Origin: Oscillochloris sp. ZM17-4
GTDB taxonomy: Bacteria; Chloroflexota; Chloroflexia; Chloroflexales; Chloroflexaceae
NCBI RefSeq assembly: GCF_019599295.1
Contig: NZ_JAIEWN010000022.1
Location: 15,770-49,892, forward strand
Length of the DNA: 34,123 nucleotides
Direction: 5' to 3'
Positions within the stretch are counted from its first letter, which is position 1. Each line of letters starts with the position of its first letter. The notes under the pieces were generated by a model, which saw nothing but the letters and a program-made list of their open reading frames with translations, had not been told where the DNA came from and ran no database searches. This document shows positions 1,091 to 28,455 of the stretch, piece by piece. A program made the translations under genes and the position numbers.

Positions 1091-1115
1091 AGGGACGCAG
1101 CGCGCTGCCGTCCCT
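1091..1115 (-). terminator. Bulged GC-rich hairpin at the 3' end of the 161-aa gene
   Basis: AGGGACG-CAGCG faces CGCTG-c-CGTCCCT, a 12-bp stem with one bulged base, overlapping the stop codon of the 161-aa gene. There is no clear U-tract, so termination is only a suggestion. Confidence 0.35.
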
Positions 1116-1599
1116 ACCGCACCGGCACATCATTCAGCGTCAGGTCGCCCACGCGCACCACCACCCGGTCGCCGGAGCGCAGGGAGTTCCTAATATTGGT
1201 ATAGAGCAGGTAGTAGGTTGTGCCGGCCTCAAGGCGCTGGCCGTGGCGGTGGGCCGCGCCGCGCTGGTCGAGCACGAGGCCGTTGCCGGCGATGATCGTC
1301 GGCAGGCTCTCGATGCTATCGGTCATCAGGGAGGCCTTGTCGGGGTCGATCACGGTGTAGCGCAGGTCGAGCAGGCCATTATCGGCGATCAGGGCCACCA
1401 TCGAGATGCGCACGCCGTACTTGGCCTCGATCTCGGCGCTGACCGGCATGGGGGCCATGCGGTCGGAGAGAGAGACGGGGCTCTGGGATCGCTGCTGCTG
1501 CCAGAGCAGGGAGCCGGCGATCAGCAGCGCGCCGAGGATGACCGCGACGACGGGCATCGAGAGCTGGCGGGCCGGGTTGGGCATCTTCAGCGTTGCCAT
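1114..1599 (-). CDS. Small membrane-anchored extracytoplasmic protein (copy 1)
   Basis: 161 aa. A short basic N-terminus is followed by one transmembrane segment (about residues 13-32) and a soluble domain outside the membrane that looks all-beta. I do not recognise a named family. A conserved A-H-R-H-G stretch (about residues 115-119) and a Met-Pro-rich patch just after the membrane segment (R-M-A-P-M-P) could bind metal, but this is inference. A close paralogue at 17463-17948 sits beside a CopC-like gene, and both copies follow the LamG end of the 1038-aa protein or its remnant, so a role in the copper-oxidase locus is plausible. A GGAG ribosome-binding site precedes the ATG. Confidence 0.8.
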   Translation of the reverse strand: MATLKMPNPARQLSMPVVAVILGALLIAGSLLWQQQRSQSPVSLSDRMAPMPVSAEIEAKYGVRISMVALIADNGLLDLRYTVIDPDKASLMTDSIESLPTIIAGNGLVLDQRGAAHRHGQRLEAGTTYYLLYTNIRNSLRSGDRVVVRVGDLTLNDVPVR

Positions 1600-1780: not shown

Positions 1781-4700
1781 CTAGTTCGCGCCGGCGCCGA
1801 TCATCGTGTTGCGCGTGGTCTTGAACTCGTCCAGGTAGATGTTGGTGTTGGATGTGCCGCTGGTCTGCGGGCCGAGCCGCAGCGTGTTCACGGTGTAGGC
1901 GCTGGTCAGCAGGCTGTTCAGCGGCGTCGCGGCGACCCCGTTGACGTAGAGCTGGAACTGCGTGCTCGCGCCGTTCGCCCAGGCCATCTCGATGTAGTTC
2001 GAGCCGTTCGTGATGGACTGCCAGGTCGTGCTCGATGTCCCGTTGGCCCGCGCCACGGACGCCCGCACCTGGTAGGTGTTCGTGCCCGTCCGCCGCAGAT
2101 CAAGGCGGAAGGCCTCGGTCTGCACGCCGCTCACATCGCCCAGCGCCTTGAAGATGGTCTTCGCGCCGGTGCCGAAGTTCTGGCTGTGCGGGTTGAGGTA
2201 GAAGCGCACGTGAAGCTGCGTCTCCGTGGCCGGCAGGGACTGCTCCACGTAGTTGTTGGCGCTGCTGCCGGTGCCGAAGGCGGCCTGCAGGCCGCGGGCC
2301 GTGCCGGCCATCGCCGCCGTCGCGTTCACCTGTAGCCGCGAGCTGGTGGTGGTGCTCTTCGAGGTCCAGCCCCAGGTGCTGTTCGTGGCGCCCGTCTCGA
2401 AGTTGTTGGCGAACGCCGAGTCGCCCACCGAGAAGCTCAGGCTCTGCGTGCTGCTGTTGCCCGCCGCGTCGGTGACGGTCACCAACACCGTGGCGCTGTC
2501 GCCCGAGACCATGCCGGTCGTGCTGATCCCGGACTGGGCGGTGCCGTTGACCAGGGTCATCGACACCTGGGCGCCGCCGTTCACGCGGTAGGAGACGCTC
2601 GCGATGCCGTTTGCGTCGGTCGGAGTGACGGTCAGGCCGACCGCCGTGCCCACGGACACCGAGCTAGCGCTCAGCACGGCCCCGGTCGTCGGCGCAGTCT
2701 TATCGATGGTGTAGGCCTCGCTGGGCACGCTCGCGCCGCCCAGCGCATTGCCGGCCTGGTCGCTGATCGTGATGCCGACAGCCTTGCTCAGGCCAAGCGC
2801 GCCGCTGCCAATACCGGTGCTCACAGTCACCGTGTACTTGAGGCCGCTGCCGCTGACGGCCGTGACGGCCGCGCCGCTCAGGACGCCGGTCGGGCTGAAG
2901 TCGGCGATATCGACGCCGGTGACGATCTCAGAGAAGGTCACGTCGAACTGCACGCTGGCCGCGTTGGTGATCGGGGTGGCCTCATTGGTGCGGACGATGC
3001 TGTTCAGCGTCGGCGCGGTCGTGTCGGTCGTGCCGCCCGTGCCGCCGCCGCCCGTGCCGCCCGTGCTACCCGTGCCGCCGGCGGTGATGAAGGTGAGCAT
3101 GCCGCCCATCCCGTTCACGCCAGCCGAGCCGTGGGCCGGCATCGCCGAGTCGTAGAGGGCGTACACGGTGCCATCATTCACGTTGGCCGGCACCGTCACC
3201 AGGCTGTCCATCGTCTGGCCGGCGCCCAGGGTCTTGGCGAACAGCGACGAGCTGATCGGCAGGGTCCCGGCGTCGTCGGCGATCACCGTCTGGCGCAGGC
3301 CCAGCACGCCGATCGAGTGGAAGCGGATGCCCGCGTTCACCTGGCGCAGCAGCACCGTGTGGCCCTCCTGGGTCGGGATGGCGTCGGTGCTCGGGTAGAC
3401 CTTGCCGTTGATCAGCAGGTAGACCGGGCTGAAGTGCTCAAGGACGAAGGTGTCCGGGCTGGCGTTGAAGTTCGGGTCGATCTCGCTGTAGACCAGCACG
3501 GCCTCGTCATCGTAGCCGTGGCCGTAGGCAGTGCTGCCCGCCTCGCGCACCACCAGGGCGCCGGCGAGGCCCATGGCGATCTGGCGCGGGCCGCTGCCGG
3601 TCAGGATGCCGGCCTGGTAGATGTAGGTGCCGGCCGGCAGGCTGGCGAAGGTGTAGACCTTCGTGCCGCCGCTGGCCGCCGCGCCGCTGGCGTCGGCCGC
3701 GCCGCCCAGGCCGGGGATCTGGATCGAGGTGGCCTCGCCCAGGTTGTTGGTCAGGTTGATCGTCAGGTCCTCGCCAGCGTTGGCGTAGAGCGTCGGGCCG
3801 ACCGCGCCGGGGGTGCCGCTGGCGCTATCGGTGTAGCTCCAGACCGGGATGGGGTTGGCGGTGCCGGGCAGGCTGATCGCCCCGATCTGCGCCCAGAGGT
3901 TGCAGGTGCGGGCGTTGCCGCTCAGCGCGCAGCCGTCGGCCAGGGCCGCGACGACATCGAAGGCGGCCGTGGCGGCCGTGGCCGCGCTGTAGTTGACATC
4001 GCCGGCCTGCTCGGCGGTCACGGTGCAGGTGCCGACATCAACCAGGGTGATCATGTCGCCGCTGATCGTGCAGACGGTGGGCGGGTCGGCGGTAAAGGTC
4101 ACCGCCAGGCCCGAGCTGGCCGTCGCCGCGACGGCGAAGTCGGCGCTGCCGAGGGCCTTGTTCGCCAGGGGGGCGAGGCTGATCGTCTGGCTCGCCGGGG
4201 CGATCGAGACGACCTGCTGGGCCGTGGCGGCGGTGAAGGCCGTGGTGGCGGCGGTGTCGGCCTGCACCGTGCAGTCGCCCGCGCCGCTCGTGCTGAAGGT
4301 CGCCCCGCTGACCAGGGAGCAGGGGCCGCTCACGGCGCTGTAGGTCAGCGCGCCGTTCGAGTTGGTCGTGGTCGAGACGGTGAAGTTGCCGCCCAGGTAG
4401 GTCGGCGCCGGCGCCGCGCCGAAGGTGATCGTCCCGGTCTGCTGGACGGCCGCGCCCACGGTCAGGGTGCCGCCCACGTTCTGGATGTCGGTGCCGCTGC
4501 CACTGCGCTGCGCGCGAACGGTGAAGTTCCGCGCGGCGGCCGGCGTCGCCGCCGAGGTATTGATCGTCAGGGTAGATGTGCGCGTGCTTGCGCCATTCCA
4601 GTTGGTCAGCGAAGCGGGCGAGAATGAAGCCGTGACCCCCGCCGGCGTCCCGCCCGACCAGATGATGCTCAGGTTCGCGGTCGAGTTGTTGTTCTGCGTG

Positions 4701-4897
4701 TTCTTTGTCACCGATACCAGATAGGTGACAGAGCCGGGCGTGCCGGCGGTGAGTGTGGCCGAGGGCGCGCCCAGGGTGATCGCCGTGAGCCTAGCAGCCG
4801 GCGCGGCCTCGGCCTGCCGCACACCGGTGCCAAGGCTCAGGGCGAGCATGGCCACTGCCAGCAGCGCGGCGGTGAGATATCGTGCGAAGAGACGCAT
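1781..4897 (-). CDS. Secreted mosaic protein: Ig-like + copper-ligand-less MCO fold + LamG-like domain
   Basis: 1038 aa with a clear signal peptide (about 1-31, A-E-A cleavage site) and a GGAG ribosome-binding site. Order of regions: an Ig-like N-terminal domain (about 35-150), two MBG/Ig-like repeats (about 155-315), a region homologous to the two neighbouring MCO proteins (about 320-610), a Gly/Thr linker (about 612-628), two bacterial Ig-like domains (about 629-825) and a C-terminal concanavalin/LamG-like domain (about 828-1038). The MCO-like part keeps the fold signatures (Y-I-Y near 424, a G-G-M-L-T end near 605). The histidine/cysteine positions are replaced: Y-H-C-H is Y-I-Y-Q-A-G here, and H-x-H-G is absent. 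It is therefore unlikely to bind the catalytic coppers and may be a scaffold, adhesin or assembly partner. It lies directly downstream of the two MCO genes. Confidence 0.85.
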   Translation of the reverse strand: MRLFARYLTAALLAVAMLALSLGTGVRQAEAAPAARLTAITLGAPSATLTAGTPGSVTYLVSVTKNTQNNNSTANLSIIWSGGTPAGVTASFSPASLTNWNGASTRTSTLTINTSAATPAAARNFTVRAQRSGSGTDIQNVGGTLTVGAAVQQTGTITFGAAPAPTYLGGNFTVSTTTNSNGALTYSAVSGPCSLVSGATFSTSGAGDCTVQADTAATTAFTAATAQQVVSIAPASQTISLAPLANKALGSADFAVAATASSGLAVTFTADPPTVCTISGDMITLVDVGTCTVTAEQAGDVNYSAATAATAAFDVVAALADGCALSGNARTCNLWAQIGAISLPGTANPIPVWSYTDSASGTPGAVGPTLYANAGEDLTINLTNNLGEATSIQIPGLGGAADASGAAASGGTKVYTFASLPAGTYIYQAGILTGSGPRQIAMGLAGALVVREAGSTAYGHGYDDEAVLVYSEIDPNFNASPDTFVLEHFSPVYLLINGKVYPSTDAIPTQEGHTVLLRQVNAGIRFHSIGVLGLRQTVIADDAGTLPISSSLFAKTLGAGQTMDSLVTVPANVNDGTVYALYDSAMPAHGSAGVNGMGGMLTFITAGGTGSTGGTGGGGTGGTTDTTAPTLNSIVRTNEATPITNAASVQFDVTFSEIVTGVDIADFSPTGVLSGAAVTAVSGSGLKYTVTVSTGIGSGALGLSKAVGITISDQAGNALGGASVPSEAYTIDKTAPTTGAVLSASSVSVGTAVGLTVTPTDANGIASVSYRVNGGAQVSMTLVNGTAQSGISTTGMVSGDSATVLVTVTDAAGNSSTQSLSFSVGDSAFANNFETGATNSTWGWTSKSTTTSSRLQVNATAAMAGTARGLQAAFGTGSSANNYVEQSLPATETQLHVRFYLNPHSQNFGTGAKTIFKALGDVSGVQTEAFRLDLRRTGTNTYQVRASVARANGTSSTTWQSITNGSNYIEMAWANGASTQFQLYVNGVAATPLNSLLTSAYTVNTLRLGPQTSGTSNTNIYLDEFKTTRNTMIGAGAN

Positions 4898-4948: not shown

Positions 4949-6373
4949 TTACTGCTGCGGGCAGCTGTTGGGCGTCGGCGGGTCGATCCGGGTGTAGGTG
5001 GCCTGGCCGCTGAGCGTGATGCCGCCCCAGCTGGTCATCTGCTGCAGGGCGTGGTTGTGGGCGATGTGGTAGTACTCGCCGCACTGGCTGTAGCCCTCGC
5101 CGCCGGGGGGCAGCGCGCCGGAGCTGCCCAGGTAGGGGCTGCCGCTCCAGTAGGGTCCAACCGTCAGGTTCGCCGTCTGCGGCACCGTCACCGGGATGGG
5201 GTTGCTGGCGCTGTAGTTGTTATCGTCCTGCCAGTCGAAGGTGATGTCCCAGGTCTGGCCGGGGCCGACGGGGATCGAGAACTTATAGGTGCTCAGGTCC
5301 GCCCCGCTCGCGTTCACCAGCGCCCGGCCGTCGCGGCCGATCACCAGCGAGTCGTTGCCGTGCGGGTGGAAGGGGTAGTCCTGGGTGCCAGCGCCCACGT
5401 AGCGCACCAGGGCCGGGTAGGGGTCGCTGGCGCTCTTGGCGTGGATGTGGACCAGGGCGCTGTAGGGCTGGTTGGGCAGCCAGGGCACCAGGTTGTCGGC
5501 CAGGGTGTCGGGGAAGGAGCGCCCGTTGATCAGGAAGTAGCGCGCCACATAGCCCTGCATGTCGAAGGCCTGCGGGTTATGCTCGCCCGTGCTCATCCAG
5601 TTGATGAAGTCGGCCTCGTAGGCCTGGTGCATAAACGGGTCGATCTCCGAGAGGATCTCGACGTTCTCGTGGGCCGGGTTGTAGGCGCTGTCCGCGCGGT
5701 TGTAGGCGTAGGCCACCTGCGTCTCATCGCCCGAGCCGATATCGTAGGTGTAGCCGAAGCCCGCGTTGCTGGGGCGCACGATGATCGTGCCGAACATGCC
5801 CATCTGCACCTGCACGCCGGCGTTGGTGCCGCTCTCGTAGATGTAGGTGCCGGGCTCGCTGGCCAGGAAGCTGTACTCCATCGTGCCGCCGGCCGTCACA
5901 TTGCCGCCGGAGCCCGAGGCCGCCGAGGCAACCGGGGCCAGCGAGGTCATCGCGCCGGAGATAAACACCGGCTGCGAGGGGAAGCCACCGGCCTGGACGT
6001 TATCCTGGCCGGGGAAGATCAGCGAGGTGTCCTCGGGCAGCATGTTGTGCAGCCGGATGGTCAGGGTGTCGCCCTGGTTCACGCAGAGGATCGGGCCGGG
6101 GTACTGGTAGTGCTCGGCCGCCGTGGCGGCGTCGGCGGTCCAATCGCCGTTGGCGTAGCCCCACATGTGGATGGCGTTGCCGTCCGACATCGTCACATAG
6201 CCGATCGTCGCCGTCAGGTCGAACATGGTCGGGTCGCCGTTGGTGCTGGTGCTACAGACCACCCCGTTGCGCGGGATGGCGGTCGACTGGGCCTGCGCGG
6301 TGCCGCGCTGCGCGACCGAGACCAGCAGTATCGCGAGGGCCGCCAGGATGGCGGGGAGCAATCGTCGCTTCAT
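4949..6373 (-). CDS. Multicopper-oxidase paralogue carrying only the second-domain half-site
   Basis: 474 aa from the ATG at 6373, chosen because GGAG lies 7 bp upstream and a signal peptide follows at once (residues 1-28). Two cupredoxin-like domains. In domain 1 the copper motifs are lost: Y-I-Y-E-S-G near 177-182 replaces Y-x-Y-H-C-H, although the trailing M-G-M-F-G is kept. In domain 2 they are kept: P-F-H-P-H-G (H346, H348) and H-I-A-H-N-H followed by Met (H446, H449, H451, M456). Those pairs match the two domain-2 histidine pairs of trinuclear copper sites; no type 1 Cys is in place. It starts 13 bp after the 439-aa gene, which has the complementary half. It probably acts with that protein outside the cell; the reaction is unknown. 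Confidence 0.85.
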   Translation of the reverse strand: MKRRLLPAILAALAILLVSVAQRGTAQAQSTAIPRNGVVCSTSTNGDPTMFDLTATIGYVTMSDGNAIHMWGYANGDWTADAATAAEHYQYPGPILCVNQGDTLTIRLHNMLPEDTSLIFPGQDNVQAGGFPSQPVFISGAMTSLAPVASAASGSGGNVTAGGTMEYSFLASEPGTYIYESGTNAGVQVQMGMFGTIIVRPSNAGFGYTYDIGSGDETQVAYAYNRADSAYNPAHENVEILSEIDPFMHQAYEADFINWMSTGEHNPQAFDMQGYVARYFLINGRSFPDTLADNLVPWLPNQPYSALVHIHAKSASDPYPALVRYVGAGTQDYPFHPHGNDSLVIGRDGRALVNASGADLSTYKFSIPVGPGQTWDITFDWQDDNNYSASNPIPVTVPQTANLTVGPYWSGSPYLGSSGALPPGGEGYSQCGEYYHIAHNHALQQMTSWGGITLSGQATYTRIDPPTPNSCPQQ

Positions 6374-6386
6374 ATCAGTACTCCGT

Positions 6387-7706
6387 TTACGCGAGGGAGG
6401 AGAGGTCGTTCGGGCCGACCTGCACAGCCGGGATGGCGTTCGAGCTCGCCGAGTAGACACGCACCTCGGTCATCTGTCCGCCCAGGCCCGCACCGCCGTT
6501 GTTGCTGATGCCCTGGATGTTGCGGTTGTAGAGCAGGTAGGTGTCGTAGCCGGCGCCGCCGCTGTGGGCCGGGGCCTCGAAGATCGCATCGACGCTCTCG
6601 CCCGGGCCAACCTGGGCGGTGCTCGTCTCGTACGAGCCGTCGGCGTCGGTCTTGCCGCGCAGCTGGGTCGCGTCCAGGCCCACCACCCGCATGCGGATGC
6701 CGGCCAGGGTCATCGAGGCCTTGGTGAAGCCCAGGTTGATCAGGCGCAGCAGCACCCGCTCACCCTCCTTGCAGTGCACCACCGCGCTGTAGGGCTGGTC
6801 GCGCAGGTCGCCGGGGACGCCGTTGGTCGGCGCGCCCACCGCAGCGCCGTTCGGCAGCAGGGTGTCCGGGTAGACCCGGCCGTTGATCAGGTAGAAGTCG
6901 GCCTTGTAGTCGGTCCAGTCCGGCAGCTGGATGTGGGCGTCGTCCCAGTGCGACTCGTTCCACACCTCGCTCAGGAAGATCACATACTCGCGGTTGTAGC
7001 CGGTGCTGCCGTCGCCATCGTTGTAGGCGAACTTCGTAAACGTCTTGCCGCCGTGCGTGTGCGCGGTGCCGTTCTGGGCCGGGCGCACCACCACCGGGCC
7101 GACCATGCCCATGTGGACGTGCTCGGTATCCTCGAAGTGGCAGTGGTACATATAGGTGCCGGGCTCGTAGGGCTTGTAGGAGTAGTCGAAGACGCGCCCG
7201 ATCGGCACGGCGATCGAGGTGCTCGGCTCGCCGTCGAACATCGGGATGACATTCTGGAAGCCGTGCCAGTGGACGGTGTGCGAGTCGACCAGGTCGGGGC
7301 GGACGGCCAGGCCCAGGTTGGTCAGCCGCACGACCGCGCTCTCGTTCTCGTCGAAGTACATCATCGGCGCGCAGGACTGGGCCTTCTGCTTGAAGCCCAG
7401 CACGTCGGCCGAGACGGGCGGGTCGGCCGTCTTATAGGCGCTCACGTTGGCGAAGCCGAACATGTAGCTCGTCTTGCCGGTCGGCGCCCAGGGGTCCGGG
7501 TAGAAGTGGGTGTTGCCGGTGCCGGGAAAGCTGGCCCAGCCATCGGTGCCGGCCAGGTAGTACTTCGGCGTGATGGTCGTGGCCGCCTGGGCCACCGGGC
7601 TGAGGTGCCCGGCCCGGCTGCTGAGGAAGAGCTGGGCCCCGGCCGCCCCGGCCGCCGCACCCAGGCCGAGCTTGAGGAAGCCTCGGCGCGAGAGTCGCTT
7701 GCTCAT
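6387..7706 (-). CDS. Tat-exported multicopper oxidase with type 1 copper and first-domain half-site
   Basis: 439 aa with a Tat signal (S-R-R-G-F-L-K at 6-12, then a hydrophobic stretch). Two cupredoxin domains. Domain 1 has a complete motif set: H-T-V-H-W-H-G (H143, H146, H148) and Y-H-C-H followed by E-H-V-H-M-G-M (H188, C189, H190, H196, H198, M201). This gives the type 1 ligands H143, C189, H196 and M201 and four trinuclear-site histidines. In domain 2 the matching histidines are gone: T-L-A-G stands where H-x-H-G is expected, and L-Y-N-R-N where an H-x-H pair is expected. Tat export suits a cofactor protein folded in the cytoplasm. A ribosome-binding site (AGGAG) precedes the ATG. Its partner for the missing half is probably the next gene. 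Confidence 0.92.
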   Translation of the reverse strand: MSKRLSRRGFLKLGLGAAAGAAGAQLFLSSRAGHLSPVAQAATTITPKYYLAGTDGWASFPGTGNTHFYPDPWAPTGKTSYMFGFANVSAYKTADPPVSADVLGFKQKAQSCAPMMYFDENESAVVRLTNLGLAVRPDLVDSHTVHWHGFQNVIPMFDGEPSTSIAVPIGRVFDYSYKPYEPGTYMYHCHFEDTEHVHMGMVGPVVVRPAQNGTAHTHGGKTFTKFAYNDGDGSTGYNREYVIFLSEVWNESHWDDAHIQLPDWTDYKADFYLINGRVYPDTLLPNGAAVGAPTNGVPGDLRDQPYSAVVHCKEGERVLLRLINLGFTKASMTLAGIRMRVVGLDATQLRGKTDADGSYETSTAQVGPGESVDAIFEAPAHSGGAGYDTYLLYNRNIQGISNNGGAGLGGQMTEVRVYSASSNAIPAVQVGPNDLSSLA

Positions 7707-7728
7707 AGGATCTCCTATAGGAATTGCA

Positions 7729-7787
7729 GATTTTAGATTTTAGATTTTAGATTGCAATCTAAAATCTAAAATCTAAAATCTAAAATC
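7729..7787. repeat. 7-bp-period array forming a 26-bp perfect inverted repeat
   Basis: Repeats of the heptamer TTTTAGA run to 7754 and the exact complement runs 7755-7780 with no loop, followed by one extra unit. It almost fills the gap between the sdr stop and the MCO start. The same design with other heptamers occurs at 17420, 24328, 30559 and 32746. Confidence 0.92.
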
Positions 7788-7790
7788 AGA

Positions 7791-10700
7791 CTACGGCAGG
7801 GTCTGGGCGCTGAAGTTGTCGACGCGGGCACCGCTCGGCAGGTAGATGCCGATCCGACCGCCGCTGGTGCCGTAGCTCCAGGAGTTGCCGCCCGAGGTCG
7901 GGATGCTCACGTGGCCCAGGTAGGTGGTGGTGGCCCCGCTGGTCTTCCACACATCCACCGAGCCGTCGGCGTTCGCCACGGCGCTCAGGGTGTCGCCGTT
8001 GGCGAAGCTGCCGGCCAGCGTGCCACGCGTGGTGTAGGTGGGGTTGTTGTTGCTGCCGTTGATCGTCGTCGCAACCACCACCTGCCCGCCGCTGTTGGTC
8101 TCGTAGCGCACGCGGATGAAGCGCGACGGCGAGGACGATGAGCCGCTGCTGGCCTTCATGTACAGGGCCGTGCCCGTCGCCGGCGTGCTGGCGAAGGTGA
8201 ATGCCGCGCCCTGGGTGGCCCCGAAGTTGCTGCCCGTGCCGTTCCAGATCGCCTGGCCGGTGCTGTTGGCGGACGCCTGCTGGTTGTTCACGCGCAGGTT
8301 GCTGTTCGGCTGGCTCCAGTTGTTGCCCAGGCCAAAGTTGCTGTTGTTCCGGTTGAAGTTATCGCGCAGCGTCAGGCTCGGCAGGGTCGGGTCGGTGGCA
8401 CCACCGCCGCCGCCGCCCGTCCCGCCGACCAGCTCGTCAGCGCCGGCGTCGGGGTTGCCCGTGCGGGTGTCGCCGTCGATGTCCGTCGTCGGGGCGCTGC
8501 GCCCGCTCTTCGATGCCGCGCCCATATTGATCGCCGGCGAGCCGGCCGCCAGGTGGTAGTTGCCCAGCAGGTTCGGCGGCAGGTCCACCGCAACCAGGGT
8601 CTGGCCCGTGCCCGCGCCGGGCATCACGCGCCAGGGCAGCACCAGCAGGCTCACGTCATAGGTCGGGTCGACCACCAGGGACTTCAGGGCCAGCGTGTGC
8701 GAGACGTTAAAGCTGCTGACCAGCTTGTTCGAGGTGTCGGTGTTGTAGCGGCCAGTGCTATCGCTGTCGAGCACCGAGTTGGTCGGGCTCAGCAGATCGC
8801 CGCCGTTGCCGCCCATCACGCCGATGTCCCAGTAGTTGATCGGCGTGGTGTCGTTGGCCGCGCCGATGCCGGTCAGGTCGCTGCCGTTGAAGGCGCCGGC
8901 CCGGTTGTCGGCGAAGATGTTGTTGAACAGCAGCGGGTTGCCGAACGTCGTGGAGCCGCCAGGCAGGATGGCCTGGAGCTGGTCGCTGTTCGCGCCGGTG
9001 CTCAGGCCGGCCGCCGCCGGGGTCCCGTCGCTGGTCACCGCCGTGGCCGTGGTGATGTTCTTCATCACGGTGTTGTTGTAGAAGCGGACGTTCGGCGCGT
9101 CGTCGATGGCCACACCGGCACCCTCGTGGGTGGCGATGTTGTTGACGATCATGTTGTTGTAGACGTTGTAGGTGTAGGTGCCGGCCATCAGGAGGCGCAG
9201 GCCGCCGCCGTCATCGTTGGACAGGTTGCCCTGGATGAGGTTGTTGTAGACATCGACGTTGCCGGCGCCCTTCGCGCCGTTGGCCGTGCCATAGTTGGCG
9301 GCCGGGTCGCTCGGCAGCTCGCCGGCGATCATCACCGCGCCACCCTCATCGTAGGAGCGGTTGAAGTAGATCCGGTTGTCGTGGATCTTGCCGCCCGTGC
9401 TCAGGCCGTAGTGGCCGATCGCGCCGCCGTACTCGGCCGAGAAGTTGCCACAGATATCGTTGTAGCCGACATCGTAGCTGTTCGAGCCCGAGAAGAGGCC
9501 GACCGCGCCGGCCAGGTTCGTCCCGCCGTTGGCGATGATCCGGTTGTGCAGGATCGACGCGTTGTTGGTGCGGCCGTTATTGGCCAGGCCAGGCAGGTTC
9601 GGCGAGCTGATGCGGATCGCGCCGCCGTAGGCCCCGCCGTTCGCCTGGAAGATGTTGTTCGTCACACCCAGGTAGTCCACATAGGAGTTGGCGTAGAGGC
9701 CGCCGCCCTGGGTCTCAACATTCACCGGGGCGCCCGTGGGCAGGCCGTAGATCTCAGAGACATTGCCCGGGAAGCCCTGCTGGTTGCCGCCCTGGATGGT
9801 GAAGCCGTCCACCACCAGCGGGTGGCCCGAGGTGTAGGTGTTCGTCCGCGGGGCGACCGCGGTGATCACCGCGCCCTCGTAGATGGTCTGGTTGCCCAGC
9901 CAGCCAGCGGCGAAGAGCTGCGCGGCCCGCGTGCGCCAGGTGTTCGCCATCGCGGTGTCGCCCACAAAGGCCCCGCCGTCGATGATCGAGCCGTCCACCG
10001 TGGTGGTGCCGCCCACCGTGATCGCGTTGCCATCGGCGTCGGTGTAGACGCCGCCGGGGCCGACGCCCTGCAGGCTCAGCGGCTGGCTGATCAGCAGGTT
10101 CTCGAAGTAGGCCAGCTGCGGGTTGTAGGTCGGGTTGGTGCTGTCGGGCACGCCGCCGGGGTAGACCACGATCAGCGGGTAGCTGGACACCAAGTTGTTG
10201 CCGGGCTCGCCGGGCAGCCGCAGGTTGCGGTCGGTGCGGTTGATCGCGGCCTGGATGGTGGCGTAGGGCTTGCCGGGGCCAACCTCCAGCAGCGTCGGGT
10301 TGTAGACGCCGTTCTGCAGCACGTGGATGGTCAGGCCGTTCACCTGGCTCATCCCGCTCGTGCCGTTCTTGATGCTCAGCTGCCACTGGCCCGGCAGCAT
10401 CTGGTTATTCGGCAGAATACCGTTAGACGCAGGCAGCGTCACCACGATCTGGTTGTTCGTCCAGCTGGTGACCGTCGGCGTGCGCACTTCGGCGAAGCCG
10501 TTGCTGTTGGTGCGGCTGAAGGTCAGGGTGCCAGCTGTGCCGAAGCCCTGGCCCTTGATCGTCAGGGTGCGGTCGCCGATGGTGTTGGCGCTGTTCTCGA
10601 AGTGGACGTAGGGCTTGTCCACCGCGAAGAGCTGCGGCTGGGCCGTGGCGGTGTTGTTGTCCAGGCGGCAGCTGACCGGGTAGCTGATCTGCGAGCCGGG

Positions 10701-13700
10701 GGCCTGGATGCTCACGCCGATCTGGGTCGGGGCCAGGTCGGCCGGCTCGATATCGCCGGGGAAGATCTCGAAGGTCGCCGAGATCGTCCGCAGCTGCGGG
10801 TTATAGTTCGGGTTCAGCCGGCCGGGGATGCCCGGGTCGTTGCCCACAATCCGGTACAGGTTCGCGCAGACACCGGTGGGCGTCGGGCAGCTAATCGTCG
10901 TGGTCGAGGGCAGCAGCACCTCGAAGACGCCGTTCGGGTCGGAGGTGATCGTGCGCACCAGCCGGTTAGCGTAGTCGTAGATGCCGATCGGGGAGTTGGC
11001 CACGCCGGCCTTCTCGCCGAACAGCAGGTCCTGCGGGTTCGACGACAGGTTCAGGTCGTCCACGATGTAGCCGAACCAGCGGCCCGGCAGGGGCACCGGG
11101 GTGAAGAGGCCGAAGCTGGGGGCGATCGACTTGCCGTTGCTCAGCGTCACCAGCTTGGTGTCGCAGAGCGGCTTCTGCTGGCCCTCGAAGGGGCTGCCGC
11201 CAATCGCGGCGAAGTCGGGGTTGACCACAGCGTCGTCGCCGTCGCCCTGGAAGGCCGGGTTCAGCGTCACCTCATCGTCAAGGAACTTCAGGTTGCCGGC
11301 CGCATCAATGCCGGCCACGTCCACCGTGTGCAGCTTGCCGGCGCAGGCCGGCGGGGCCGCCTGGGGCGTGTAGGAGTCGCCGGTGAAGACGTTGATGTCC
11401 TCCTCGCGGGTCGGCGTGTAGATCGGGCGGCCGGAGTACGGGTCGTTGGGGATCTCCACCTCGACCAGGTAGTCGCCGGCGAGCAGCGGATTGCCGTTGG
11501 CATCCTCGGTGAAGCCGTAGTTACCGTCCACCGCCGCATACTCGGTGCCGAACTGGGTGCCGACCATCGGACCCTCGACGCAGTCGCGGCCGGCGCCATC
11601 GTTCAGCGGCAGGGCCTGGAAGAAGCCCGGGTCGAGCGGCGCGCCGTCCGGCCCACGGGCCACACAGTCGGTCGGCCGAACCCAGCTCTCGGTGTCCGTC
11701 GTGTTGAGCAGGGGGCCGTGCTTCAGCGAGCCGTCGGCGAGGGCCACGTAGGAGCCGGAGCCGGTCGGGTTGGCCACGCAGCGCTCACCCGGCTGCAAGG
11801 TGTAGCCGACGCAAGAGACCGGCTTGTAGAGGTTCACCGTCAGCCCGGGGATGCCGACCTGCCAGTTCTCAACGGCCAGCTCGCGCGGGTTCAGCTCGTT
11901 GCGGGTGGTGTCGTAGCTGACCGTGCCGACGATGCCGCCGTTGTGCGGGACCTCAACCGTGTTGTTCGTCCCCGGCACATACTTGGCGAAGGGCAGGGCG
12001 TTGTAGCGCTGCACGGCCCAGTCGAGGTGGCCGTTCTGGCCGATGATCGTCAGGAAGTTCACGTCCACGCCAGCGCCATCGATATGGCTCTTCACATAGC
12101 TGGTCGGGTCGTTCGGGTTCGAGAGCGGGCTATTGTCGGCCCAGTAGGTCGCGCCGGTGGTGTAGTAGGTGTCGGAGTAGGCCTCGATCACAATCCACGC
12201 CGTCAGCGGGTAGACCGAGTCCATGACGTAGTTGCCGGTGGCGTCGGTGACGGCGCCCTGGTTGCCGCGGTCGATCACCGAGTTGGTGCGCCGCTTCACG
12301 GCCAGCGGGAAGCCCGAGAGGCCGGGCTCGGTGTCCTGGCAGTAGCCGTCGTAGTTGGTGTCCGAGCAGACCCGGCCGCTCAGGTGGGCGTACCAGGCCG
12401 TCAGGTGCAGCTGGCCCACGTCGGTGATCTGGCCGTTCTTCACATCGACCTGCTGCCAGTCAAGCAGATACAGCTGGTCGGTGTCCCACCAGCTGATCTG
12501 GTAGGTGCCGTCGGGCACGTGGGGCACGTAGAAGTTGCCCTGGGCGTCGCCCTGGCCGACCCAGACAGTCTGGTCGCCGTTGTTCAGGTCGGAGATGGCG
12601 ACCCAGGGGTTCTCGATCGGCTTATCTTCTTTGGCGCCGCTCAGGCCGGCCCAGATCGAGCCGGAGTAGGGGATGCCGCCAACGCCGGGGGTGTAGACGG
12701 TCACCGCCATAACGCTGCCCTTGATGCCGCCGGTGGCGGCGGGGGCGATCCCGTTCTGCGGGTTGGCGGTGGGCTGCACAAAGCCGAAGGGCACCCAGGG
12801 GAAGGGCTCTCCAGCCACCGCGAACTCGGTGTCGTAGCCGGTGGAGCCCTCCTGCACCCAGACGTCCCAGTCGTGGTTGCCCTCAAGGGTGGCAGTCTGG
12901 ATCCAGGTCTGGCCGTCGGGCGGGGTGGCCAGCATGGTGTAGCGGTTCGGCCCCATGTTGGGGATGGCCACCTGGCCGGCGAGCAGCGGCGAGTTGGCCG
13001 GGTCGCCCAGGTCGGGGGCGGTGCCATCGCTGCTGTAGAGGCAGCCGTTCAGCTGCTGCGGGCCGGGCTCGTCAGTGTTCGGGCTGCCGTCGCTGTTCAG
13101 AGTCGGGTAGGTGGAGCAGATCGGGTTGCCGAACACATCGTTGGTGATCTCACCGAGGGTGTCGTTCACCGTGAGGCGGAGGCCGGCCAGGCCGGGCTGG
13201 TCGCCGGCCTCGCCGGGGGCGCCGGGGGTGCCGGTGATGCCCATCTCGGCGGGCAGGTCGGGCTGGCCGTTGGTCGAGCGGTTGTCGTTGAACACCACCG
13301 CGCGCAGGGTCGCCGTCGGCAGGTCGTAGGTGTTCATCTGGACGACAACCTGCTCGCCCTCCTGGAGCGGCATGGTGAACCAGGCGCCATCGATCTTGTA
13401 GCCGGCGGCGGTAACCGAGATCATGTAGTTGCCGGCGGGCAGGCCATTCGGGAAGCCGATACCGCCGGCGAAGACGCCGTTGGCATCGAAGTCCGCGGCG
13501 CTGCCCTGGGTCACGATCGGGGCGTAGCCGCTCTGCGTCTTGATCGAGGTCCAGTCGCAGCCAGCCGGGTAGTCGGGGTTGGTGGCCTTAGCGCAGAGGT
13601 CGCGCGACTGCGTGTTGTTGCCGACGTTATCCTCGACGATCAGGAACTGAAAGTCCGGCAGCCGCACCGGATTAGCGTTCGGGTGCTTCGGATCGATCCC

Positions 13701-13892
13701 CTCGACGATGAAGTTCACCGTGGGATCATTGAGATTGGGATTCGTCGTAACGGCACGATCCCACTTCAGCAGGTTCGTCGTGGCGGCGTGGGCCACGGGC
13801 GGGCTGCCGAGTGAGGGCAGCGCGGCCACGGCCATGGCCAGCATGAGCAGCAGGCTGAAGAGCCGGAGCTGCTTTGTTCGTGTTGCGGGCAT
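7791..13892 (-). CDS. Giant secreted SdrD-like / right-handed beta-helix protein (copy 1)
   Basis: 2033 aa with a signal peptide (about 1-36, ending A-H-A-A) and a G-rich ribosome-binding site (AGGGGG) before the ATG. The N-terminal half has carboxypeptidase-regulatory/SdrD-B-like modules (for example around 505-600, with D-x-N-x-D-G-x-C-x-D-T-E-P-G). An IPT/TIG-like domain lies near 1095-1160. A pectin-lyase-type parallel beta-helix rich in Asn and Gly (N-N-I, Y-N-N) covers about 1205-1655. A choice-of-anchor-Q-type end (D-I-D-G-D-x-R-x-G) lies near 1805-1825, and a concanavalin/LamG-like domain ends the protein (about 1836-2033). No LPXTG or C-terminal membrane anchor is seen. It is probably an extracellular fibre, sheath or adhesin component, and is the first structural gene after blaI/M56, upstream of the MCOs. 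Its N-terminal 840 residues are paralogous to the protein at 18394-21045. Confidence 0.88.
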   Translation of the reverse strand: MPATRTKQLRLFSLLLMLAMAVAALPSLGSPPVAHAATTNLLKWDRAVTTNPNLNDPTVNFIVEGIDPKHPNANPVRLPDFQFLIVEDNVGNNTQSRDLCAKATNPDYPAGCDWTSIKTQSGYAPIVTQGSAADFDANGVFAGGIGFPNGLPAGNYMISVTAAGYKIDGAWFTMPLQEGEQVVVQMNTYDLPTATLRAVVFNDNRSTNGQPDLPAEMGITGTPGAPGEAGDQPGLAGLRLTVNDTLGEITNDVFGNPICSTYPTLNSDGSPNTDEPGPQQLNGCLYSSDGTAPDLGDPANSPLLAGQVAIPNMGPNRYTMLATPPDGQTWIQTATLEGNHDWDVWVQEGSTGYDTEFAVAGEPFPWVPFGFVQPTANPQNGIAPAATGGIKGSVMAVTVYTPGVGGIPYSGSIWAGLSGAKEDKPIENPWVAISDLNNGDQTVWVGQGDAQGNFYVPHVPDGTYQISWWDTDQLYLLDWQQVDVKNGQITDVGQLHLTAWYAHLSGRVCSDTNYDGYCQDTEPGLSGFPLAVKRRTNSVIDRGNQGAVTDATGNYVMDSVYPLTAWIVIEAYSDTYYTTGATYWADNSPLSNPNDPTSYVKSHIDGAGVDVNFLTIIGQNGHLDWAVQRYNALPFAKYVPGTNNTVEVPHNGGIVGTVSYDTTRNELNPRELAVENWQVGIPGLTVNLYKPVSCVGYTLQPGERCVANPTGSGSYVALADGSLKHGPLLNTTDTESWVRPTDCVARGPDGAPLDPGFFQALPLNDGAGRDCVEGPMVGTQFGTEYAAVDGNYGFTEDANGNPLLAGDYLVEVEIPNDPYSGRPIYTPTREEDINVFTGDSYTPQAAPPACAGKLHTVDVAGIDAAGNLKFLDDEVTLNPAFQGDGDDAVVNPDFAAIGGSPFEGQQKPLCDTKLVTLSNGKSIAPSFGLFTPVPLPGRWFGYIVDDLNLSSNPQDLLFGEKAGVANSPIGIYDYANRLVRTITSDPNGVFEVLLPSTTTISCPTPTGVCANLYRIVGNDPGIPGRLNPNYNPQLRTISATFEIFPGDIEPADLAPTQIGVSIQAPGSQISYPVSCRLDNNTATAQPQLFAVDKPYVHFENSANTIGDRTLTIKGQGFGTAGTLTFSRTNSNGFAEVRTPTVTSWTNNQIVVTLPASNGILPNNQMLPGQWQLSIKNGTSGMSQVNGLTIHVLQNGVYNPTLLEVGPGKPYATIQAAINRTDRNLRLPGEPGNNLVSSYPLIVVYPGGVPDSTNPTYNPQLAYFENLLISQPLSLQGVGPGGVYTDADGNAITVGGTTTVDGSIIDGGAFVGDTAMANTWRTRAAQLFAAGWLGNQTIYEGAVITAVAPRTNTYTSGHPLVVDGFTIQGGNQQGFPGNVSEIYGLPTGAPVNVETQGGGLYANSYVDYLGVTNNIFQANGGAYGGAIRISSPNLPGLANNGRTNNASILHNRIIANGGTNLAGAVGLFSGSNSYDVGYNDICGNFSAEYGGAIGHYGLSTGGKIHDNRIYFNRSYDEGGAVMIAGELPSDPAANYGTANGAKGAGNVDVYNNLIQGNLSNDDGGGLRLLMAGTYTYNVYNNMIVNNIATHEGAGVAIDDAPNVRFYNNTVMKNITTATAVTSDGTPAAAGLSTGANSDQLQAILPGGSTTFGNPLLFNNIFADNRAGAFNGSDLTGIGAANDTTPINYWDIGVMGGNGGDLLSPTNSVLDSDSTGRYNTDTSNKLVSSFNVSHTLALKSLVVDPTYDVSLLVLPWRVMPGAGTGQTLVAVDLPPNLLGNYHLAAGSPAINMGAASKSGRSAPTTDIDGDTRTGNPDAGADELVGGTGGGGGGATDPTLPSLTLRDNFNRNNSNFGLGNNWSQPNSNLRVNNQQASANSTGQAIWNGTGSNFGATQGAAFTFASTPATGTALYMKASSGSSSSPSRFIRVRYETNSGGQVVVATTINGSNNNPTYTTRGTLAGSFANGDTLSAVANADGSVDVWKTSGATTTYLGHVSIPTSGGNSWSYGTSGGRIGIYLPSGARVDNFSAQTLP

Positions 13893-16500: not shown

Positions 16501-17406
16501 CTACGCCCTGCGCCGCCGCATGAGCACGAAGCCGCCGGCGACGACGACGACCACAAGGGCGAGCACCATCACGAGAAGCGACGGGCTGGAGGAGCTATCG
16601 GGGACGTCCCAGGCGATATGGGCGACCGTCTCGGGGACGATGCCGCGATCAATCCGCACCTCAGCCGCCCAGCTGCCGGGGCGGTCGATCAGGTCGCCGG
16701 ATGCCTGGAAGCGCCCGTCATTCGCCTGGGCCAGCACAATATCGCGCGGGGCCTCGCCGGGCGGGGTCAGGCGCAGGGTCACCTCACCGATCTGCGCGCG
16801 CAGGGGCCGGCGGATCGGCGCGGCCTGAACGCTCATAAAGTTGGCCCCCGGCCGGTTCGGCCGGATCGCCAGCGTCACCATGAGGTCGTCGGCGATATCG
16901 GTGTAGCTCTGCGAGAGCGCATCGCCGCCATCGGCGCTCGCCGGCGCGTCGGGGTCCACGCCGAAGACGAGGCTGCCCGTCGTGGCCACACGGTCCTTGG
17001 TGGCGATCGCCCGCCAGCTCATGCGATAGGTGCCGGGGCCGAGCTCAGGCAGGTGAACCATCAGGGTCGTCGGGTAGCTGTTCAGCCCCAGCGAGCAGAG
17101 GAAGAGGAAGGTGGGGTCGAAGAGCGTGGAGAGGCCGGCGTCATCCGGCTTGTAGATATCGGTGTGGAAGCTCTCGACCGGCACCTCGCGGCCATCGGCG
17201 TCGGTGAGAGTCACCGCGCCGGGCTCGATGATCGCCGAGCTGTCGTACCAGAGCTGGAGCATCTGCGGGGGCTTCTGAAGCACCGACCCATCGACCGGCT
17301 CGCTATGCACCACCACCGAGCGCGCCCGCGCAGAGGCCGGAAAGGCGAGCATGCTCGCCAGCAGCAAGAGGCTCAGCAGCGGCCAGAGCGTGTGGCGTCG
17401 GGGCAT
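16501..17406 (-). CDS. CopC-like protein fused to a second beta domain with C-terminal membrane anchor
   Basis: 301 aa from the ATG at 17406, chosen because GGAGG lies 6 bp upstream; the longer frame runs into a repeat. Signal peptide about 1-28, then a CopC-type beta-barrel beginning H-S-E-P-V-D-G-S. In CopC proteins the N-terminal His and a D-G-H motif bind Cu(II). Here the equivalent of D-G-H reads K-D-R-V, so one ligand appears lost. A second domain (about 160-270) resembles YtkA/CopD-tail-like beta domains and ends in P-G-S-W-A-A-E-V. A transmembrane helix and a basic tail (R-R-R-R) follow. Probably an extracytoplasmic copper-handling protein; it is last in the second, decayed copy of the copper locus. 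No CopD is nearby. Confidence 0.8.
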   Translation of the reverse strand: MPRRHTLWPLLSLLLLASMLAFPASARARSVVVHSEPVDGSVLQKPPQMLQLWYDSSAIIEPGAVTLTDADGREVPVESFHTDIYKPDDAGLSTLFDPTFLFLCSLGLNSYPTTLMVHLPELGPGTYRMSWRAIATKDRVATTGSLVFGVDPDAPASADGGDALSQSYTDIADDLMVTLAIRPNRPGANFMSVQAAPIRRPLRAQIGEVTLRLTPPGEAPRDIVLAQANDGRFQASGDLIDRPGSWAAEVRIDRGIVPETVAHIAWDVPDSSSSPSLLVMVLALVVVVVAGGFVLMRRRRA

Positions 17407-17419
17407 CGCGAGCCTCCAG

Positions 17420-17459
17420 ATTGCAGCATTCAGCATTCAGCATTCAACATTCAGCATTC
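17420..17459. repeat. 7-bp-period array upstream of the CopC-like gene
   Basis: Five or six units of GCATTCA/ACATTCA type fill most of the 56-bp gap between this gene and the 161-aa paralogue. It belongs to the same repeat class as 32746-32836. Confidence 0.8.
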
Positions 17460-17462
17460 TCG

Positions 17463-17948
17463 CTACCGCACCGGGACATCATTCAGCGTCAGGTCGCCCA
17501 CGCGCACGATAACCGTATCGCCGGGGCGCAGGGAGTTTTTCACATTGCTATAGAGCAGGAAGTAGGTCGTGCCGGCCTCAAGGTTCTGGCCGTGGCGGTG
17601 GGCCGCGCCGCGCTGGTCGAGCACCGTCCCGTTGTTGGCGACAATCGTCGGGAGGCTCTCGATGCTGTCGGTCATCAGGGCGGCCTTATCGGGGTCGATC
17701 ACAGTGTACCGCAGATCCGCCAGGCCGCGGTCGGCGATCAGGGCCACCTGTGAGATCCGCACGCCATACTTCGCCTCGATCTCAGAGCTCACCGGCATCG
17801 GAGCCATGCGCTCGGCCAGCGTGGCGGGCTCGCGCACCTGCTGCTGCTGCCAGAGCAGCGCGCCGGAGATCAGCAGGGCGCCGAGGACGATGGCGACGAC
17901 GGACATCGGGAGGCGGCGGGCCGGGTTGGGCATCTTGAGGGTTGCCAT
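17463..17948 (-). CDS. Small membrane-anchored extracytoplasmic protein (copy 2)
   Basis: 161 aa, the same length as and very similar to the protein at 1114-1599: membrane segment at about 13-32, the M-A-P-M-P patch, the A-H-R-H-G stretch and an identical C-terminal V-G-D-L-T-L-N-D-V-P-V-R. It lies directly before the CopC-like gene in the same direction, with a 7-bp-period repeat between. Its retention in both copies, when the MCO genes were lost from this one, suggests a role separable from the oxidases. Function unknown. Confidence 0.82.
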   Translation of the reverse strand: MATLKMPNPARRLPMSVVAIVLGALLISGALLWQQQQVREPATLAERMAPMPVSSEIEAKYGVRISQVALIADRGLADLRYTVIDPDKAALMTDSIESLPTIVANNGTVLDQRGAAHRHGQNLEAGTTYFLLYSNVKNSLRPGDTVIVRVGDLTLNDVPVR

Positions 17949-17970
17949 AAAAAGACTCCTACTATAGTAA

Positions 17971-18032
17971 GGGCGCAGCAGCGCGGCGCTGCTGCGCCCT
18001 TACAGACGGGGAGGGGACCCCTCCCCGTCTGT
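17971..18032 (-). terminator. REP-like hairpin plus 15-bp hairpin, copy 2 equivalent of 1708-1769
   Basis: GGGCGCAGCAGCG and its complement (17971-17999) are followed by ACAGACGGGGAGGGG and its complement (18002-18032). Copy 1 has the same pair but with three units of the first hairpin. Confidence 0.6.
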
Positions 18033-18043
18033 GGCCGTCCGTG

Positions 18044-18427
18044 CTAGTTCGGGCCGATCGTGGTGCTGCTCGTCACGACCACCTCATCGAGGTAGATAGT
18101 GGCGCCGGCGTTCGTGCTGTTATTCGCCGTGTTCTGCGGGCCGAGCCGCAGCGTGTTCACCGTGTAGGCGCTGGTCAGCAGGCCGTTCAGGTTCACCGGG
18201 GCGGCCCCGTTGACCGTGAGCTGGAACTGCGTGCTCGCGCCGCTGGCCCAGGCCATCTCGACCCAGTTCGCGCTGTCGTCAATGTTCCGCCAGCCGGTGT
18301 TTGAGGCACCGTTGGCCCGCCGGACAATCGCCCGCACCTGGTAGCCGCCGTTGGCCTGGCGGATCTGCAGGCTGAAGGCCTCGGTGTTGCCGTTCAGCGC
18401 GCGGAAGATAACCTTCGCGCCGGTGGC
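18044..18427 (-). pseudogene. Remnant of the LamG-like C-terminus of the 1038-aa protein
   Basis: The minus-strand frame encodes about 127 residues closely matching the last part of the protein at 1781-4897: A-K-V-I-F-R-A-L, then Y-Q-V-R-A, W-V-E-M-A-W-A, S-T-Q-F-Q-L, T-V-N-T-L-R-L-G-P-Q. It has no own start or signal peptide and is joined upstream, out of frame, to the truncated sdr gene near 18424-18432. The natural stop codon and downstream hairpins are intact. The 18337 in-frame start gives only 97 aa and is probably not used. Confidence 0.85.
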
Positions 18428-24327: not shown

Positions 24328-24426
24328 ATTGCAGATTGCAGATTGCAGATTGTAGATTGTAGCGTGCAATCTGCAATCTGCAATCTGCAATCTGCAATCT
24401 GCAATCTGCAATCTGCAATCTGCAAT
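24328..24426. repeat. 7-bp-period (CTGCAAT) array in the divergent promoter region
   Basis: About four GATTGCA-type units (two altered to GATTGTA) face about nine CTGCAAT units, so the array folds into a long hairpin with unequal arms. It occupies most of the gap between the M24 and GH1 genes and must overlap their promoters. Confidence 0.92.
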
Positions 24427-27143: not shown

Positions 27144-28226
27144 ATGGCCGGGGTCGTGCTCTACATCTTCACGCTGCTGATCGAGTCGATCAGCGTGGTC
27201 GTGCGCTTCGGGATCGTGAGCGGGCTGGTCAGGCTGCTCGCCGGGGGCACCGCGGGGATTGTGGCGGGGGCCGTCGCCGGGCTCGGGCCGGTCATCTACT
27301 CGCTGCTCGCCCAGGTCCGCGCCAGGGGCGTGCCCTTCCCCAGGCACGTCTTCGCCGTGGACATCGAGGGGCTCAACGCGGCCATCTCCGGGCGGACGAT
27401 GTACATCTACCGCGAGCTGTTCGACAGCCGCTACCTGACCGGGGTGGTGGCCCACGAGCTCGGCCACTTTAACAGCATGGACGGCCGGCTGATGCTCGGC
27501 ATCCGCGCCCTGACGATCCCCGGCGGGTTCTTCATCGCCTACCTGCTGCTCGGCCTGCTGCGCTGGGTGGCCTACGGCATCTCTACGGTGCTGGTGGCGT
27601 TTCTCGTCGTCGTCTTCGCCTTCCTCCGCATCAACCTCAGCGGGCTGGCCGGCCCGCTCTTCGGGATCAGCCTCCAGATCACGCGCATGACGATCATCTT
27701 CGCCGTCGGCGGGGTCGGCCCGGCGCTGCTCGGATCGATCTGGCGATCCTACTTTATCGAGCGCGAGTTCGCCGCCGACGCCTTCGCCGGCCGGCTGGGC
27801 TACGCCTACGACCTGCTCGACTTCTTTGAGACGGAGGTGCTGAGCGATGTGAGCATCCCATGGTACGAGCAGCCGACCCACCCGACCACCACGCGGCGGG
27901 TGGTGAACCTGGAGCAGGTGGCGGCCAGCTTCCCGCAGGCCCGCGCCCGCCCGCAGGGCGCCCGCCGCCCGCCGCCCAGCCCCGCGCCTGAGCGATCGGC
28001 GCCCACCGGCGCGCAGCCGTCCGCCGCCGCCCGCCCCCAGGCCCGCGATCTGCGGGCGGCCCGCTCGGCCCGCCGGCCCTGGCCGATCATCGCCGGCGTC
28101 GGTCTGCTGGCCGCCGCCATCCTGATCGTCGCGCTGCTTTCCGGCGCCCCGCCCGCCCGCCCCGCCGACGCCTACCGGCCGACGCCGGGGCCGACGCCGA
28201 CGCTGGGGATATCACTGAGTCACTGA
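27144..28226 (+). CDS. M48 family (HtpX-like) membrane zinc protease
   Basis: 360 aa with AAGGAG before the ATG. N-terminal hydrophobic segments (about 5-55), then V-V-A-H-E-L-G-H (H104, E105, H108), two more membrane segments (about 127-160), and the third zinc ligand in R-E-F-A-A-D (E208). A Pro/Ala/Arg-rich linker (about 265-305) leads to an extra transmembrane helix (about 312-330), an addition beyond standard HtpX. Membrane-protein quality control is the usual role. The final codons (I-S-L-S-H-stop) lie in the 81-bp tandem repeat that follows, so the C-terminus has probably been set by the repeat. Confidence 0.9.
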   Translation: MAGVVLYIFTLLIESISVVVRFGIVSGLVRLLAGGTAGIVAGAVAGLGPVIYSLLAQVRARGVPFPRHVFAVDIEGLNAAISGRTMYIYRELFDSRYLTGVVAHELGHFNSMDGRLMLGIRALTIPGGFFIAYLLLGLLRWVAYGISTVLVAFLVVVFAFLRINLSGLAGPLFGISLQITRMTIIFAVGGVGPALLGSIWRSYFIEREFAADAFAGRLGYAYDLLDFFETEVLSDVSIPWYEQPTHPTTTRRVVNLEQVAASFPQARARPQGARRPPPSPAPERSAPTGAQPSAAARPQARDLRAARSARRPWPIIAGVGLLAAAILIVALLSGAPPARPADAYRPTPGPTPTLGISLSH

Positions 28227-28455
28227 GGCGCTGAGGTGCTGAGGGACTGAGGCGTTGAGAGACCAATCTCAGTTTGCCAGGCGCTTGATCTCAAACTGAG
28301 TCACTGAATCACTGAGGCGCTGAGGGACTGAGGCGCTGAGGGACCAATCTCAGTTTGCCAGGCGCTTGATCTCAAACTGAGTCACTGAATCACTGAGGCG
28401 CTGAGGGACTGAGGCGCTGAGGGACCAATCTCAGTTTGCCAGGCGCTTGATCTCA
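28213..28455. repeat. Three 81-bp tandem units containing the 3' end of the GxxExxY gene
   Basis: The word GACCAATCTCAGTTTGCCAG starts at 28261, 28342 and 28423, an exact 81-bp period. The last unit includes the real C-terminal codons (E-I-K-R-L-A-N-stop) of the minus-strand gene; the others are copies of that end. The other half of the unit is a run of CACTGAGGCGCTGAGG-type words, which also form the stop of the M48 gene. Confidence 0.93.

Follow-up and report, generated by a model that had tools for sequence, protein, structure and literature searches.

Can the oxygen-reducing site of a multicopper oxidase be divided between the products of different genes? To our knowledge, the known multicopper oxidases hold this site either inside a single chain or where identical chains meet. 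The question is raised by a 34,123-nucleotide stretch of Oscillochloris sp. ZM17-4 (contig NZ_JAIEWN010000022.1, positions 15,770 to 49,892), hereafter the window, whose source genome comprises 6.7 Mb in 182 contigs. A preliminary description of the window had proposed that one multicopper-oxidase site is split over two adjacent proteins of 439 and 474 amino acids (aa), here named A and B. A third subunit, C, encoded by the next gene after B, had been overlooked. The analysis suggests that A, B and C arose as copies of a type C two-domain oxidase, have since diverged and very probably form an obligate 1:1:1 heterotrimeric oxidase with one site.

Domain 1 of A in the window carries the motifs H143-TV-H146-W-H148-G and H188-C189-H190-FEDTE-H196-VHMG-M201, in which H143, C189, H196 and M201 are the type 1 copper ligands and H146, H148, H188 and H190 the trinuclear ligands. 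In an alignment with intact one-chain relatives, the four domain-2 positions of A are T, A, Y and R. The preliminary description had read these motifs, their residue numbers and the loss of the domain-2 histidines (His) correctly. B aligned to the same kind of relatives keeps, of the eight domain-1 ligands, only the Met at the axial position, and its HPHG and HNH motifs contain H336, H338, H439 and H441 (474-aa numbering). For B, the earlier reading that the domain-1 motifs are lost and two domain-2 His pairs are kept holds, and the numbers given for these histidines (346, 348, 449 and 451) were ten too high. As had also been claimed, the eight trinuclear His are contributed jointly, four by A and four by B, and the multicopper-oxidase set of 4 + 4 trinuclear His plus the type 1 ligands is complete in A and B together and in neither alone. 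The curated model PF07732 matched A, B and C above its cut-off, and PF07731 and PF00394 matched A. The type C structures 3G5W and 2ZWN are among the best structural relatives by sequence of all three proteins and cover both domains of C, and 3G5W was the first match for the B profile and for the C profile.

When genome contigs were scanned with A, 100 relatives came up; the best 80 loci were retained, making 81 loci together with the window. A, B and C were extracted from these loci, and their ligands were scored against intact one-chain relatives in alignments whose register was checked. All three proteins were recovered in 75 of the 81 loci, and their order was A-B-C on one strand in 75/75. 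Of the six incomplete loci, five are cut off by a contig end, and in one (L082) C is broken into two overlapping frames. All eight domain-1 ligands, including the four trinuclear His, were found in every A row (81/81), and no domain-2 His was found in 79/81 A rows, with one in the remaining two. B kept all four domain-2 His in 79/79 rows. None of the eight domain-1 ligands was present in 69/79 B rows and one was present in 10/79, which was a trinuclear His in three of these; 76/79 rows had no domain-1 trinuclear His. C had no domain-1 ligand in 64/75 rows, only the axial Met in 11/75 and a domain-1 trinuclear His in 0/75, and it had no domain-2 His in 73/75 rows and one in 2/75.

The type 1 copper site in domain 1 was found in A only (81/81) and was absent from B and C. 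No row of A, B or C had both trinuclear halves in one chain, as intact relatives do. All twelve ligands were present in the intact one-chain type C relatives L098, L099, L125, L126, L130, L131 and L149, and both domains of L098 matched the type C structures 2ZWN and 3G5W with an expectation value (E) of ~1e-40. The lost positions were conserved too: Q stood at a type 1 His position in 79/79 B and 75/75 C rows, and R at the last domain-2 position in 77/81 A rows. The column of the first type 1 His was a gap in the B rows of the 81-locus alignment and held T or V in other alignments with intact relatives. Because it is conserved across 80 loci and the window, the ligand partition between A and B is confirmed as real and not a matter of chance. 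Judged by this ligand pattern, neither A nor B could form a working homotrimer.

Co-occurrence was followed in 939 sampled genomes of four phyla. In Chloroflexota, Actinomycetota and Bacillota, an A profile and a B profile were each run against whole genomes (E up to 1e-30), and in the fourth phylum, that of genome G305 (labelled Deltaproteobacteria), A alone was searched; only some of the first-look candidates per genome were scored, and misses are possible. A was present in 35/939 genomes, G718 not counted, and B was absent in one of them. The A and B profiles each matched 10/301 Chloroflexota genomes. The strong matches came from the same seven genomes for A (E 1.3e-80 or better) and B (2.7e-169 or better); of the other three, G244 and G300 have intact one-chain oxidases and G185 has a tandem protein described below. 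The same 3/246 Actinomycetota genomes had A and B, with B cut by a contig end in one. Of 199 Bacillota genomes, 12 had A (E at most 1.6e-118), and all of these but G594 had B as well (11 genomes, 7.2e-158 to 1.2e-175); the weaker matches in G600, G711, G723 and G744 were intact one-chain oxidases (G552, G579, G674 and G730 were left out). The phylum of G305 had A in 13/193 genomes, with B beside A in 11 and C next in 10, the rest being cut by contig ends.

Two Bacillota genomes depart from this pattern. A and C lie 9 bases apart in G594 with no B between them, and in this A three of the four trinuclear His are replaced by Y, E and Y, with the whole type 1 set kept. A is frame-broken, B is gone and C is a remnant in G718, a thirteenth Bacillota genome, where an assembly error is possible. 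No genome among the 939 sampled had an intact A half-site without B, except at contig ends. The evidence that A and B co-occur with complementary losses, the outcome that the preliminary description had sought from a homologue search, is strong. A lone homologue with the same losses had been named there as the observation that would speak against a shared site, and the only A-like gene without B, that of G594, had lost most of its trinuclear His as well.

The arrangement of the subunits was modelled on two loci, L088 (a Peptococcaceae metagenome-assembled genome) and L020, in which A, B and C lie in one frame and the stops were read as Gly to give single A-B-C chains. AlphaFold2 models of the fused chains, from 40- and 42-row alignments, had a mean predicted local distance difference test score of 83.0 and 82.1, respectively, and both had a predicted template modelling score of 0.85. 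Three-domain oxidases superposed on model 1 over residues 1..730 (6vow, 379 residues, 2.7 Å, Z 34.8), and from this span domain 1 of A and domain 2 of B (A1/B2) would correspond to domains 1 and 3 of a laccase, which together hold the trinuclear site. The superposition on model 2 ran over residues 461..1189 (2xu9, 391 residues, 2.9 Å, Z 26.1), which corresponds to B domain 1 and C domain 2. The two-domain oxidases 3G5W and 2ZWN matched the models with Z 30-32. Both models fit one predicted ring with the contacts A1/B2, B1/C2 and C1/A2, in which A domain 1 would face B domain 2 as the preliminary description had supposed; the opposite ring would set A1 against C2, which has no His. Foldseek aligned all six domains to ceruloplasmin, factors V and VIII and MnxG with template modelling (TM) scores of only 0.19-0.23, and such low scores would be expected if the ring runs opposite to the chain order of these proteins. 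No ceruloplasmin or MnxG chain was among the 50 superposition matches listed, which is not informative on kinship.

In the mechanism that we propose, A, B and C would assemble 1:1:1 into a ring of six cupredoxin domains, the kind of ring that intact relatives make with three copies of one subunit. Of the eight trinuclear His, A domain 1 and B domain 2 would each provide four, and the type 1 copper site would lie in A domain 1. The B1/C2 and C1/A2 interfaces would be dead, leaving one active site per ring. An electron from an outside reductant would enter at the type 1 copper of A and pass through the H-C-H (Cys-His) motif to the trinuclear centre between A and B, where O2 would be reduced to water. 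Neither A nor B alone would be an oxidase, because the trinuclear centre needs halves from both. C would close the ring, and its extra domains, found in Chloroflexota and many others, may anchor the complex. The 1:1:1 stoichiometry is proposed, the electron path would follow established multicopper-oxidase chemistry, and the substrate class would be an extracellular or surface reductant. The idea of a heteromer with one site shared by two subunits is supported and retained from the preliminary description, and its 3+3 ring of A and B is not: a two-domain ring has three places, C always adjoins A and B, and the third place is most likely filled by C.

The history of the subunits was examined in a maximum-likelihood tree of 67 rows with a midpoint root. 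A, B and C each formed one side of a branch (100/99, 99/97 and 100/94, respectively), B and C stood together and A stood beside the intact oxidases. A second tree of 58 rows, including the fourth phylum, again had A, B and C as separate clades (100/100, 95/88 and 99/94). Because the root is a midpoint root, we only infer the order of events: an intact ancestor was probably duplicated, A lost the ligands of domain 2, the common ancestor of B and C lost those of domain 1, and C later lost the rest. The distance matrices of A, B and C over 75 loci correlate at 0.92, 0.84 and 0.90, with 0.92 for A and B.

The tandem protein of G185 (L100:572-2866, minus strand, 764 aa) has two two-domain units in one chain, followed by a cupredoxin domain. 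Unit 1 keeps domain 1 and has lost domain 2, and unit 2 keeps the four domain-2 His and has lost domain 1 except for one His. The units are each other's sisters (97/87; 99/88) and group next to intact Chloroflexota oxidases, away from A and B, and the protein is probably an independent second case of the split. It is known from one genome of 80% completeness, and no second copy of the fusion was found at E 1e-20 over its full length in 16 genomes of the order. Taken as a whole, we consider it likely that a ceruloplasmin-like ring is here encoded in three genes, an obligate heterotrimer with one site whose halves were parted once in the ancestor of lineages in at least four phyla, and probably again in the tandem fusion. 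If true, this would show the step from a three-site homotrimer to an asymmetric one-site ring without gene fusion.

Several observations weigh against the heterotrimer. Stray single ligands occur, with a domain-2 His in 2/81 A and 2/75 C rows and a domain-1 trinuclear His in 3/79 B rows. In model 2 the contact seen directly is B1/C2, and A1/B2 follows only indirectly, for a ring of three units; most other matches of this model are two-domain chains lying on C alone, and the domain assignment was drawn only from the first and last residues of the superpositions. The read-through fusions force the chains together, and fusing them could bias the order. Shared species history alone could yield much of the A-B distance correlation. 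Other stoichiometries are possible, and any catalytic role of C is putative. In the nearest competing explanation, the shared site forms in a ring to which C does not belong (A2B or AB2), and C is a separate surface protein. It would agree with the lack of a copper site and the large unrelated regions in C, and one site needs just A1 and B2. However, C comes next after A and B in 75/75 complete loci, its clade is as old as those of A and B, and it is packed into the ring in both fused models. In Bacillota, C is 315-423 aa long in 8/10 loci and has little beyond the two-domain module, which also speaks against this ring. We regard this ring as unlikely.

A still less probable explanation gives up the trinuclear centre altogether, with A being a mere type 1 copper electron carrier or copper-binding protein and B and C its non-catalytic partners. 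Pseudo-oxidases such as factor V and SufI exist, and a type 1-only form may be viable, since A of G594 holds its type 1 set after the loss of trinuclear His. In contrast, the four trinuclear His kept in every A and every B row (81/81 and 79/79) are hard to explain without a shared metal site, and G594 and G718 show the trinuclear halves decaying together. Degenerate oxidase-domain copies are generally common, and a normal two-domain oxidase that has simply decayed or been miscalled, leaving A and B functionally unlinked, could be imagined from this. Four phyla share one ligand partition, each subunit forms a clade, and the lost positions hold conserved residues (Q in all B and C rows, R in nearly all A rows); these points speak so clearly against it that this explanation was rejected and is given hardly any weight. 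The heterotrimer of A, B and C is kept as the best explanation.

Table 1. Coordinates of the oxidase genes, their ligand regions and the adjoining genes in the window.
Feature	Position	Strand	Description
A	6387..7706	minus	439 aa, two-domain multicopper-oxidase subunit with twin-arginine-like signal; all ligands kept in domain 1, none in domain 2
A domain-1 ligand stretch, H143 to M201	7104..7280	minus	Roles by alignment to type C two-domain oxidases
B	4949..6373	minus	474 aa, two-domain multicopper-oxidase subunit; domain 1 without copper sites, four trinuclear His in domain 2
B domain-2 stretch, H336 to H441	5051..5368	minus	H336, H338, H439 and H441; aligned with HTH and HDH of 3G5W
C	1781..4897	minus	1038 aa; two-domain multicopper-oxidase module flanked on both sides by long extra regions
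C two-domain module	3044..3931	minus	About residues 323-618, no copper site
P	7791..13892	minus	2033 aa, surface-type protein; conserved partner gene lying directly upstream of A
161-aa protein	1114..1599	minus	Downstream of C; N-terminal hydrophobic segment (by eye)

The genes of the minus-strand cluster follow each other in the transcription order P, A, B, C and the 161-aa protein (Table 1). B is counted from an ATG, and its open frame extends back to a GTG at 6460. A second A-B-C set lies on the same contig outside the window (G000:C98 ~7470-12604, equal to L102:4471-9605), with A of 506 aa, B of 471 aa, C of 704 aa and the same ligand motifs as the window set. C is very large in four loci of the fourth phylum (L147, L151, L153 and L155), where open frames of 1694-2001 aa are ended by the sampled stretch. 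A twin-arginine-like motif was found in 69/81 A rows with a loose pattern. No signal peptide was seen by eye in A, B or C of Bacillota, for which a spore-surface location is a guess. The P family, with SdrD-like, carboxypeptidase-regulatory-like and beta-helix matches, was present upstream in 72/81 loci, including ten of the ten Bacillota loci. The 161-aa protein had no Pfam or NCBIfam match, and its family occurred in 52/81 loci, with no Bacillota locus among them. Neighbour clustering of the 81 loci found CopC-CopD proteins in 43/81, the window not counted, and gave no clue to the substrate; the window has a separate CopC protein.

Upstream of P, a minus-strand group at 16501-21045 contains a second P-family surface-type protein (18394-21045), a second member of the 161-aa family (17463-17948) and a CopC-domain protein (16501-17436), with no A, B or C of its own beside it. 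Intergenic heptanucleotide tandem repeats lie at 7728-7787, 24328-24426, 30559-30630, 32746-32836 and 17424-17459. They are mostly facing pairs that could form hairpins, and those between P and A are AGATTTT x3.7 followed by AATCTAA x4.6. A 39-bp unit is present in three copies downstream of C (1624-1740), and an 81-bp unit in three copies at 28214-28456. Deoxyhypusine synthase is usually tied to eukaryotes and archaea, and a strong match to it (PF01916, E 9.5e-67) is encoded on the minus strand at 30633-31709.

Among the open-licence PubMed Central (PMC) matches listed, no title or abstract described a divided or heteromeric multicopper-oxidase site; subscription papers and preprints lay outside this search. 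One match for 'heterotrimeric', PMC10367259, was set aside, as the part considered concerns CO dehydrogenase. A survey of bacterial laccase-like genes (PMC3192119) does not have the words Chloroflex, adjacent, incomplete or truncated in its main text. A, B and C apparently represent an undescribed, conserved variant, a heteromeric multicopper oxidase with its putative site divided between paralogues. Strong evidence comes from the ligands, the trees and the co-occurrence, and assembly and activity are predicted. Annotation that wants all motifs in one chain would call each subunit inactive or atypical, and such oxidases may be overlooked in these phyla.

The known systems share single features with A, B and C. 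According to the relevant part of PMC13151041, two-domain oxidases are trimeric with a trinuclear site common to two protomers, and those whose N-terminal domain carries the type 1 site are defined as type C. The type C oxidases 3G5W of Nitrosomonas europaea and 2ZWN, a metagenome laccase, have the same fold, the type 1 site in domain 1 and equivalent trinuclear His. Their chains are identical, each with both halves, and give three sites per ring, whereas in A-B-C the halves are in different gene products and one site would result. The tandem protein of G185 has the ligand partition of A and B but in one chain, and groups with intact Chloroflexota oxidases. The Mnx complex, MnxG plus MnxE3F3, is a multi-subunit oxidase, as A-B-C would be. 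In the part of PMC5622069 considered, MnxG is a single subunit that binds a hexamer made of the small proteins MnxE and MnxF, which have no known homologues, and the catalytic site is not said to be divided.

Ceruloplasmin and Bacillus MnxG (9BXA) have six cupredoxin domains and one trinuclear site, as A, B and C would have when summed. These six domains lie in one chain, whereas A-B-C has three genes and reaches six domains only in sum. In a review of six-domain proteins (PMC3600357), the domains that flank the trinuclear site are 1 and 6 for chordates and 2 and 3 for bacteria, and the type 1 copper is in even-numbered domains, unlike the type 1 site of A-B-C in the first domain. The review derives the six-domain proteins from a triplicated two-domain protein in one chain, and the terms 'heteromer' and 'separate genes' are absent from it. 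Membership among MnxG and ceruloplasmin was not adopted, as those are one chain, the type 1 position differs and the order would be permuted. With the halves fixed in different proteins, activity would become conditional on assembly. The system would be a bacterial, experimentally tractable case of a symmetric homotrimer that turned into an asymmetric heterotrimer, in which a single interface is catalytic. Ceruloplasmin and MnxG, whose rings have six domains and one site, are in a comparable state, which A-B-C would have reached without fusion.

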